A DNA stretch of 64,000 nucleotides from Phoenix dactylifera (Eukaryota; Streptophyta; Magnoliopsida; Arecales; Arecaceae): contig NC_052405.1 in the NCBI RefSeq assembly GCF_009389715.1, positions 9,651,194 to 9,715,193 on the forward strand, given 5' to 3'. Numbering within the stretch: position 1 is the stretch's first letter; the number at the start of each line of letters is the position of its first letter. Below are positions 41,277 to 45,149 of this stretch, one piece after another. Position numbers and translations under genes: made by a program. A model generated the notes under the pieces. It did no database searches. It was not told the DNA's origin and saw only the letters and a list, made by a program, of their open reading frames with translations.

Positions 41277-44200
41277 TTAACCAAGAAATGGATAGTCTGT
41301 ATATCCAACAACTGGATCAGGAATGTAGAAAGTGCTCCTGTTATATTTATTAAGTGGAGCATCCAACTCAAATCTTTGAGGAAGATCAGGATTAGCCAAG
41401 AACAGGCGTCCATATGCAACCAGATCAGCATAGCCACTAGAAACAACTTTATTGCCTTCTTCTCTATCATAGCCTCCAGCAACAATAAATGTTCCCTTGA
41501 ATGCTTTCCTCATAGGAAGAAGAGAGTGAGGAGTTTCAACCTTTTCTCCTACTTTAACCATCCTTGGTTCTATCATATGGCAATACGAGATCCCAAATTT
41601 GTTCAAAGAATTGACCATATAGAGACCAAGAGCACCTGGATCAGAATCCCTTGATTCCATGTAGTCAGCATAGGGGGAAAGCCTTATTCCAACGCTGTCA
41701 GCTCCAATCTCATCAACCACAGCTTGTACTATTTCAAGTGCAAAGCGGCAACGATTCTCCAGGCTCCCACCATATTGGTCTGTCCGATCGTTGACTTGGT
41801 CCTTCAGAAACTGATCAACCAAATATCCGTGGGCTCCATGGATCTCAACCCCATCGAAACCTATGAATCAAGGAATAACGATAATGATAAGTTGGAGAGA
41901 ACTTTATGGATGAAGACCAATTTCTTTTTTTCTTTTTTTATCTGATAATATGAATGGTGGAATACCATCAGATTGATGCCTAATCAGTTTAACTATTTAA
42001 ACTAGTCCAAAGACAGTGCAGCTACCATGTGAATGATGATCAATTGAAGGCTTATAGCATGCTGCATAAATTACCATGTTAGATAGGCAAAGAGACATCT
42101 AAAGCGTTCAGGAAATGTCCAGGGCAACACCAATACAGAGAACATAGATGGGAACAGTAAATTTATTAAGAAGCAATAAGATCCCAAAAAATCCCTGTAG
42201 GGCATGTACTAAAGTTGGCAAAAGGAATATAGAAAGATGTCATTATTTACTTGATCCAAAGAATAATTCTCTAAAGCAATTATTTCTTTATCAGGTGAAA
42301 TAGCTAAATTTCGAATTAAGACTTTGTCTACTCCATTAATAACTCTTCAAGCACTTTAACCCCCCACACCCCCTCCCCTCATCCCCCAAAAAAACAGAGA
42401 AAAAAAAATCTCTTCCACCAAATTTAGCCAATATGTGGTACACCACTTCAATATATGTGCAACTTAAAAATCATGATAAAGTGACAGTCACTATAGGGTT
42501 AGAAAGCTTGCATGGTTCTGAATTTTGATTACTGGGGCTCTCAGACATACTCAATGCAAGTGGGACAGAGAACTTTATATTTATTACTGGGGCTCTCAGA
42601 CGTACTAAATGCAAGCGCAGCAGAGAACTTTATGCTTAAATCATGTGTTGCAGTGAATTTGTAAACTGAATCTAACTTCTTATGGGGAACCTACATGAGA
42701 TGATGATCCTTCATGGTCAACTGACTAGGGAAACTTAACAACACTTCTTATATGAACATTTATGTGTTTTAAATTCTTTTTAGTTCACACATATCAATTG
42801 TCAACAATTTTCTAGGTATCTCACGCAACCTTCTAATATTCATGGAAAACTCCAGCTTTTTCTTTCATGCCCCAAATCCGTGACATAACACAACCATGCT
42901 ACCGAGCGGTACAACCGACGATAACAAAGCCAAATATTTCATTTAACTTCCAAATTCATCTTAAACAAAATATAATAAATAAAAGTCCAATTTCATTATC
43001 CATTAAATGCAACCAATACTAGAATACTAGTTCAGAGCGTCTAAATCTAAACATAAATACTAAACCCATAATTCTCAATATTCAGAAAATCATTAACCCC
43101 AAATTCATAGTCAATTTAAAATACTAAAATTCTTCTACAAAATTGTTAAGCGTGCTAGCATGAAGTCCAAGCCTAGAACATTCTTCGTTCCTATCAACTC
43201 TATTCGTATGGCAAGAAAAAAAATAAAAATAGAGATATATGAACGACACAGCTCAGTAAGTAAATCTTACACTATTTTATCGGATCAAGCATAAGTTTTT
43301 CCATATCAATGCATCATTTAAGAAAAATGACGAATATTACAACATAAAGTATTTCATAGTACAATATATTAAAACAAATCATAAAACCAATCATGCATAC
43401 ATAAATCATTTATATTTCATAAATATGGTTCTAAGTTTATTTTGCAAATAAATTCATAAATCATCATTCTGTCATTTAGTCATATCATAGTTCAAAATAT
43501 TATTCATAGATATTCATGCTACGGTCACTTTATACCCGTGACAGGGCCATGTTTCATAATCGACAAAGATACATGTTTCATATACCAACTTTATACTCAC
43601 TAACAGGGTTGTGTTTTGTATGGATATAGCTCCGGATGTCGATTTTTTCAATTCTAGGGATTATACATAGCTATCTGAGAGCTTTTAGAAAACTTACCAG
43701 CTTCGATCGCATTCCTCGCGGCGAGTCTAAAATCCTTGACGATGCAAGGGATCTCATCAGTTCTTAATCTGCGGGGAGGAAAGTACTCTTGGACACTGCC
43801 GTCGAGATGGGTAACAGGTCCAAACCCCTTGTTTGTGCTAGAGACCGGTGCTTGCCCATTAGGTTGAAAACCTATGCAACCCACAAATATATTAGGAGCA
43901 TATAGCTAGTATATCTGTATCTATATCTATATCTATATATCTCTCTCTGTCTCTCTATATATATATTCTCTTTTCTCAAAGAATACCATAAAAATACATC
44001 ATAGGTGGTAAAAGAACAATACCAGAACTAGAAACTCTCCCCACATGCCAAATTTGGCAAAAGAAGACCCCACCCTTGGCGTGGACGGCATCCACAATTG
44101 GCTTCCAAGCTTCCACCTGCTCCTTTGTCCATATCCCAGGAGTGGCCGGGTATCTAACAAATAATTTAGGGGGAAAAGGTAGAGAAATAATGAGAACTAG

Positions 44201-45149
44201 ACTTTTGAGAGTTTTGTTTGCCTTCAAACATAGAAGATCAAGAGAAGAATTTTAAACCATTCAATCATAGAAATTAGAATTTTTAATAGGATCTCATACC
44301 CTTGGGCTGTATCCGAGACCCCAGTGGCTTCGCTTATGAGAAGGCCTCCTTTAGTTGTCCTCTGAGAGTAGTACAAGATAGCATGTTGTTGTGGAACGTT
44401 GCCATAGGATCTTGATCTCGTCAATGGTGCCAAAACAACCCTGAGCAATGAAAACAAAAATAATATTTTATTATAAAATATTTGAAAATAAGCTAAAGTT
44501 TAGTTTATATGATAAGAGCTCAACAAATCTTTTATACTTCTGAATATTCTATATACATAGAATTTCTCACCAATGTTACCCTAAAAAAATTTCTCACCAG
44601 TATAACTGTGAGGACCCGTGCGAGTGTGTATTTAGTTGCACATCGGTTATTCGCTGGATAGATATTGGGTACTAATACAGGATCAAGAAATCCAAATAAT
44701 AACTTCCGGCTAGCCATTTTGGGTGAAATTCTGAGTTGTTACAAATGGTATCAGAGTAGACCCGGCCCATAACCTATGTGGACTAGGGGACACTGCAGCA
44801 CAAATCTATTGAAGCTGACCACGGGTTGATCGTGGTGTTTGTGATTATATTCGAATAGATTTGAACCCTTAGCATGACGAGGACGTCGGGGCTTGAATGG
44901 GAGGAGTATGTGAGGATCCGTGCGGGCATGTGTTTAGTCCCACATCGGTTATTCGCTGGGTAGATCTTGGGTATTTATACAGGATCAAGAAATCCAAATA
45001 ATAATTTTCGGTTAGTCATTTTAGATGAGATCCTGGGTTGTTACAATAACAACACCGATGAGAAGAGAAATGAAGAAGGGGCATGCTGACCTGTGAGAAA
45101 GATCAAATTTTCCCATCTTGTGTGGAGTCAGAAGAGGGATGGCGGCCAT
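41277..45149 (-). CDS. OPR: 12-oxophytodienoate reductase B (OPR1-type), complete, chimeric
   Basis: Exons 45149-45091, 44440-44300, 44153-44023, 43871-43698 and 41860-41277 give 362 residues. It has the same fold signatures as [53 protein letters not shown] (His176, His179, Tyr181), [10 protein letters not shown], end YPFLG. Exons 1-4 are clearly diverged from A (for example the 3-base shorter exon 4 with [16 protein letters not shown]), while exon 5 differs from A by one residue (Gly for Ala in DPGALGL). So the C-terminal half was copied from A recently. Intron 1 contains a TRIM insertion. All splice sites are intact, so the chimera should be translatable. Substrate unknown; no peroxisomal tail. 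Confidence 0.95.
42863..43692 (+). repeat. Partial copy of the solo LTR inside the duplicated block
   Basis: Corresponds to the first 0.83 kb of the 28044-30325 LTR and ends at the duplication edge next to OPR B exon 4. It is noticeably more diverged from its source than exon 5 is from its own. Confidence 0.85.
43913..43972. repeat. TATC/TCTA microsatellite in OPR B intron 3
   Basis: Mixed (TATCTA)n, (CT)n and (TA)n runs between exons 4 and 3 of gene B. Confidence 0.8.
44607..45045. mobile_element. TRIM (miniature LTR retrotransposon) in OPR B intron 1
   Basis: A complete 439-bp unit: LTRs of 137 bp at 44607-44743 and 44909-45045 (TGTGAGGA...TTACA), a Met-tRNA-type primer site TGGTATCAGAG just after the first LTR, a 165-bp non-coding interior ending in a purine-rich GGGAGGAGTA, and a perfect 5-bp target duplication ATAAC (44602-44606 and 45046-45050). 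TRIMs encode nothing and rely on other elements. It is related to the array at 50330-51050. Confidence 0.92.

Follow-up and report, generated by a model that had tools for sequence, protein, structure and literature searches.

Insertions in which a DNA break is repaired with a patch from an ectopic template were reportedly described by Vaughn and Bennetzen in 2014. Such patching has been proposed for the promoter of Antirrhinum BAMT, in the accessible part of PMC5244254. The locus described here, OPR B of the date palm, resembles those insertions in having a copied segment, non-homologous ends and short repeats at the joins, but its patch is a terminal coding exon in which the reading frame is kept (compared with the accessible text of PMC5244254). 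A hybrid of paralogues is also known from a wheat NLR gene, where it arose by unequal crossing-over (PMC6097286, accessible part). As in OPR B, the 5′ part of one paralogue is joined there to the 3′ part of another, but in the case of OPR B the donor is intact and the two breakpoints are free of homology (compared with the same part of PMC6097286).

By family, the closest relatives of OPR B are the OPR1-like 12-oxophytodienoate reductases (Old Yellow Enzyme family; AtOPR1, 1vji; tomato OPR1, 1icp), with which it has the PF00724 domain in common. Members of OPR subfamily I usually have 3–4 introns (PMC2688005, accessible part), and OPR B has four. It differs from these reductases in that its two halves derive from two paralogous lineages. 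Our literature search on OPR gene conversion, on chimeric genes (titles and the beginnings of abstracts) and on OPR tandem duplication in date palm returned no report of an OPR chimera of this kind, and the accessible text of PMC2688005 contains neither “gene conversion” nor “chimer”. OPR B is clearly a new case of a known process. What is unusual about it is that the donor, a marker of polarity, the scars and probably also the replaced part have been kept.

The OPR array and the mosaic structure of OPR B

The window, by which we mean the whole 64-kb stretch of DNA that was analysed, holds three OPR genes on the minus strand, in the order of transcription C, B, A (Table 1). A PF00724 profile search of the genome (773.08 Mb, 2391 contigs) gave 14 matches, with 16/16 candidates scored. 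Further loci are OPR D on contig C10, a near-identical copy of D on contig C354, and one locus on C11 that has a stop within its first PF00724 match and a translation that appears OPR3-like by eye. Exon 5 of B scored 163.8 bits and exon 5 of A 165.2 bits against a cut-off of 27. The top solved-structure matches were 1icp and 1vji, both for B, with exon 5 as the query, and for the whole A protein. Rfam and tRNA scans of the window gave no matches.

Table 1. Positions in the window of the OPR genes, the shared block and its junctions
Feature	Position	Strand	Observation
OPR A exons 1–4	32905-32847, 32281-32141, 32022-31892, 30956-30780	minus	overall 30780..32905
OPR A exon 5 (probable donor exon)	26449..27032	minus	exon comparison
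OPR C, third array gene, comparison sequence	52442..54532	minus	
OPR B exon 1, 59 bp, B's own, D-like	45091..45149	minus	52/59 to D, 47/59 to A
OPR B exon 2, 141 bp, D-like	44300..44440	minus	128/141 to D, 109/141 to A
OPR B exon 3, 131 bp, D-like	44023..44153	minus	115/131 to D, 104/131 to A
OPR B exon 4, 174 bp, D-like	43698..43871	minus	142/174 to D, 112/174 to A
OPR B exon 5, probable A copy, 584 bp including stop	41277..41860	minus	582/584 to A, 432/584 to D
Block in B, probably copied from A (intron 4, exon 5, ~1.9 kb of 3′ flank)	39352..43696	minus	96.4% to 24497-28875
Probable donor block in OPR A	24497..28875	minus	window self-BLAST
Complete LTR-like repeat, A intron 4, 2.28 kb	28044..30325	minus	GAAAA target duplications 30330-30326, 28043-28039
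Truncated repeat end in B, ~830 bases	42863..43696	minus	followed by one GAAAA, 42862-42858
Junction 1, exon 4 / composite donor GTAAGT	43690..43700	minus	likely TAA(G) microhomology, B vs A repeat interior
Junction 2, 16-bp filler	39336..39351	minus	local 9- and 7-bp repeats
3′ half of a D-like exon 5, now an orphan with 95 open codons and a stop	38211..38498	minus	86.9% to D
Segment S1, ~830 bp, D-like exon-5 tail at ~38650-38727	38501..39335	minus	91.8% to S2
Segment S2, twin of S1, D-like exon-5 tail	51175-52001		91.8% to S1

The original prediction held that OPR B combines its own exons 1–4 with exon 5 of A, and the identities per exon (Table 1), the trees and the AU tests agree with it. 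OPR B is a mosaic, and it lies on a single N-free stretch. Summed over exons 1–4, A and B have 372/505 bases in common and B and D 437/505; the marked A–B difference expected there extends to the length of exon 4, which is 174 bp in B and D and 177 bp in A. The match of B exon 1 to D continues into the 5′ side (97 bp, 85.6%). In exon 5 the two A–B differences counted by eye were confirmed, one of them synonymous and one a replacement. The A–B dS is 1.68 in exons 2–4 and 0.008 in exon 5, which excludes a uniform divergence across separately aligned exons. In the DNA tree of exons 1–4 of the four genes, B and D group together (100/100), and the AU test rejects A with B (p-AU 0.00076); the protein tree of the same exons (7 rows) gives B+D at an unstarred 90/97 and rejects A+B (p 0.022). 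For the exon 5 proteins it is the B+D grouping that is rejected (p 0.004). As exons 1–4 group with D and exon 5 with A, OPR B is built from two OPR lineages.

The splice phases, said to be intact, hold up: in the sequence both the hybrid reading frame and the splice sites are kept, including the exon 5 acceptor CATAG. The frame has 362 residues, 168 of D type that reach from the N-terminus into the region of the substrate-binding loop and 194 of A type that take in the catalytic His/His/Tyr and the C-terminus, and is kept because the phase at exon 4/5 is common to these OPR genes. OPR intron positions and phases are conserved (PMC2688005, accessible part), so that an exon swap can keep the frame. 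The gene would be expected to yield a hybrid protein.

Upstream of each of the three OPR genes lies one TGACG-N7-TGACG tandem (34958-34974, 45408-45424 and 54867-54883, minus strand); these are the only three occurrences in the window when both strands are scanned, and in the 10-kb D locus (L031) the tandem occurs once, upstream of D. We take it to be an as-1-like element, with a role in TGA-factor action and stress induction. Upstream DNA is also common to A and B (34871-35098 vs 45320-45547, 89.5%), with a second match at 35104-35433 vs 49311-49629 (83%). This likeness is close given the divergence of the exons and may reflect an older exchange of promoter DNA between A and B. Elsewhere in the window, a repeat unit in tandem copies is common to B intron 1 (44607-45046) and to 50330-51050 behind C, and direct repeats at 2040-2422 and 9097-9479 (383 bp, 98.2% identical, separated by ~7 kb) could be the LTR pair of a young retrotransposon.

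The shared block and the direction of copying

The self-BLAST of the window aligned the two copies of the block over 4384 columns, and its ends agree within a few bases with the duplication originally placed at 24498-28877 / 39352-43692. In B the block reaches from the splice donor of exon 4 to ~1.9 kb beyond the stop codon. Outside the repeat it is found at two places in the genome, among the best 40 of 1322 candidates. Intron 4 had been described as nearly as close as exon 5. This is the case beside exon 5, with an A–B divergence of 0.64% in the 468 adjoining sites (1.3% in the non-repeat intron), but not in the repeat-derived part, where it is 5.9%; the 3′ flank differs by 2.65%.

A separate origin of the repeat-derived part was considered because of this 5.9%. 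Its transversions (10/832), however, do not differ significantly from the 16/1925 of the 3′ flank (Fisher p 0.39), and only its transitions are raised (39/832 vs 35/1925, p 5e-5). We therefore prefer an equal age with faster transitions, presumably due to methylation. The noncoding, non-repeat DNA of the block differs between A and B at 64/2924 sites. Substitution in palms proceeds at ~2.6e-9 per site and year, from which we would guess an age of ~4 million years for the block. A stretch of 404 intron bases by exon 5 (27045-27448) is identical in A and B and less diverged than the remaining noncoding non-repeat block; 3/300 permutations were as extreme. A later A–B exchange could have refreshed exon 5. 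Carriage of the block as a gene fragment by a transposon (Pack-MULE type) was rejected: the BLAST list holds no inverted repeats that pair the block ends, and no target duplication was seen flanking the block.

The direction of copying is read from the repeat in intron 4. In A this repeat has TG...CA ends and the 5-bp GAAAA on both sides. Among the eight loci of its family that were compared, one (L012) aligned end to end, two (L013, L014) aligned at either end in separate pieces, and 5/8 fall short of the outer end. With its TG...CA ends, 5-bp target duplication and shared family ends the A repeat carries the marks of an LTR-type element. We call it LTR-like; it may be a solo LTR. The piece in B is cut inside the repeat, and its insertion site and flank are the same as in A. 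Divergence between the two pieces is 5.9%, whereas identity is 79–85% for the remaining long matches listed for this part and 74–83% for three short side matches (both among the best 40 of 1322 candidates). As the repeat is whole with two target duplications in A and a fragment with one in B, the direction is from A to B. The claim that exon 5 was copied from A is thus borne out by the truncated repeat in B together with the D-like relatedness of B's other exons. The donor could, however, have been a lost A-like gene carrying the same repeat instead of A.

Junctions, rival explanations and the orphaned exon

At junction 1, the sequence of B is ...GAAGCTG followed by GTAAGTTTTCT; that of A, within the repeat, is ...AAGATATAAGTTTTCT. 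The exon-4 donor is GTAATT in D and GTAACA in A, which makes TAA, perhaps TAAG, the likely microhomology, the ancestral donor of B being deduced from these two. The resulting GTAAGT is the plant splice-donor consensus. At junction 2, the block ends in ...ACAGGGA and is followed by CCTAAATTGGCAATTT and then by homology to S2. The filler contains AAATTGGCA and, together with the last GA of the block, gives GACCTAA; both are repeated within ~40 bp. For comparison, 43/5000 random 18-mers of like composition match at least 9 bases in the neighbouring 66 bp. By eye, CAGAAGTAAGA is common to A just past the breakpoint and to the start of S1.

A likely microhomology and locally templated filler, the marks of templated end joining, are present at the junctions. 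Alternative end joining has been described as giving rise to locally templated insertions (PMC7407515, accessible part). Neither BLAST nor inspection by eye revealed A–B homology flanking the two tract ends. Since the block was joined without such homology and beside filler, a templated insertion made while a break was being repaired explains the structure better than homologous gene conversion or unequal crossing-over, and we infer it as the repair pathway. According to this model, OPR B started as a D-type OPR gene, in which a break or a fault of replication arose in the stretch that separates exon 4 from the 3′ portion of its original exon 5. The gene would then have been patched with ~4.35 kb copied from OPR A, which lies next to it downstream; the copy would start within the A intron 4 repeat and run through exon 5 to ~1.9 kb beyond the stop. 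One end of the patch would have been attached by end joining at TAA(G) on the exon-4 donor, creating GTAAGT, and the other through the 16-bp filler. Of B's own exon 5, the first half would have been lost and the remainder left as an orphan. We consider the mosaic, the A-to-B polarity and the templated insertion, taken jointly, to be very probable.

Ordinary homologous (ectopic) conversion of B by A across the shared exon 5 region would also be non-reciprocal with the donor retained, and could account for the very low-divergence core around exon 5. We nevertheless find it improbable, as the tract ends, one in the interior of the A repeat and one where the 3′ flank meets S1, lie without visible A–B homology and bear microhomology and filler. 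A later conversion inside the block may have occurred. Unequal crossing-over is what a tandem array of genes in the same orientation might suggest, but an exchange between intron 4 and intron 4 would leave one A exon 5 and delete the intervening DNA. In the present case A is preserved whole and the tract is bounded by two breakpoints, and of all explanations weighed we give this one the least credence. Copying from B to A is hardly more credible. We found nothing that supports it, and it is opposed by the complete repeat with both target duplications in A and the truncated one in B, by the D-like other exons of B, and by the D-like exon 5 remnant behind B.

In favour of an assembly artefact, a small contig carries a second, near-identical version of the D locus, so that uncollapsed haplotypes may exist. 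For the block itself, an assembly duplication, the other ground on which the original prediction might have failed, is nevertheless very unlikely: the two copies lie with distinct flanks on one N-free stretch, their divergence is 2.65% over the 3′ flank and 5.9% over the repeat-derived portion, the junction keeps a splice donor and the frame, and the non-repeat block was found at just two places among the best 40 of 1322 candidates.

Behind B lies the orphaned half exon, which is 86.9% identical to D, 77.6% to A and 74.4% to C. Of 279 sites, 48 agree with D and not A and 14 with A and not D (p 1.7e-5). Its synonymous divergence from D (27/66) is similar to that between B and D in exons 2–4 (33/105; Fisher p 0.25). 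The DNA quartet places it with D at 75/74 and keeps the alternatives with A and C (p-AU 0.27 and 0.14), four-taxon site patterns being few (8, 8 and 4 of 281 columns). The protein tree unites the orphan with D and C at 90/92, a support that applies to the group as a whole. From these comparisons the pairwise closeness to D appears strong, and the sisterhood weakly resolved.

We think it probable that the orphan is B's own original exon 5. A less likely variant, compatible with the core of the explanation preferred above, is that it came from another D-like gene and that B's exon 5 was wholly lost. Both the weak quartet support for orphan and D and the second D-like exon-5 tail in S1 and S2, which may mean that another D-like gene once lay nearby, speak for this variant. 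Against it, the orphan is next in line behind B on the same strand, its distance to D is like B's, and a BLAST of 20000-60000 against the D locus found no D-like exons 1–4 between orphan and A.

The tail in S1 and S2 is shorter than the orphan exon, and no third copy of S1/S2 was found among the best 40 of 731 candidates in the genome. Parts of S1 and S2 are ~66% like sequence upstream of D. We also weighed whether S1 and the A block arrived together in one event. S1 and S2 differ at 55/824 sites (6.7%) compared with 2.65% in the 3′ flank of the A block, with an excess of transversions that is not significant (p 0.10). This divergence, together with the position of S1 next to the middle of the orphan exon, raises the doubtful possibility that B was already dead, its exon 5 halved by the arrival of S1, and was revived by capture of the A exon.

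The predicted enzyme and what the hybrid means

We take Tyr78, His187, His/Asn190, Tyr192, Arg239 and Tyr246 (tomato OPR1 numbering) to be the OPR active-site residues. Positions 78, 187, 192, 239 and 246 hold the same residues in A, B, D and tomato OPR1; at 190, A, B and tomato OPR1 have His, and D and AtOPR1 have Asn. The catalytic set His187, His190 and Tyr192 is thus present in B. Tyr at both 78 and 246 makes B OPR1-like, and the OPR3-type Phe78 and His246 of tomato OPR3 are absent. The active site had been assigned to the copied half. This is right for His187, His190, Tyr192, Arg239 and Tyr246, which exon 5 carries, but not for Tyr78, which lies just past the exon 2/3 join, nor for the substrate-binding loop. 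In OPR C (52442-53659, exons 3–5), the corresponding residues include Phe190, His192 and Phe246, with Gly112. Tyr192 is the proton donor in OPR; as this usual residue is missing from C, the gene may be decaying or its product may catalyse a different reaction.

In chain 1q45 of AtOPR3, presumably the protein elsewhere named AtOPR02-1, the match to exon 5 begins at residue 179. The substrate binding loop is located in barrel unit 3, with sites 157 and 158 in AtOPR02-1 numbering (Li et al., 2009, PMC2688005), and OPR substrate specificity has been tied to this loop in earlier work (accessible part of PMC2688005). The loop would therefore precede exon 5, and B is predicted to join a D-type loop region to an A-type catalytic half.

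Exon 5 shows 2 A–B changes, whereas the rate of the non-repeat noncoding block predicts 12.8 (Poisson p 0.0003). When the neutral rate is taken from the nearest noncoding DNA, p is 0.08, and at half the rate, with B alone free, 0.047. The low level of change is consistent with selection on the exon. Together with a dN/dS of 0.22 between B and D in exons 2–4, this constraint would fit a gene on which selection still acts.

Often, hybrid genes are recognized only by patchy trees. For OPR B a single window contains the donor, a marker of direction, the two scars and, probably, the exon that was discarded, and the formation of the hybrid is thereby directly testable. The case is one of an intact new enzyme gene that would have arisen in a tandem array through faulty repair. 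If expressed, OPR B would be a natural swap that sets the substrate-binding-loop region of one lineage over the catalytic half of another, and would bear on how OPR substrate preference is built.
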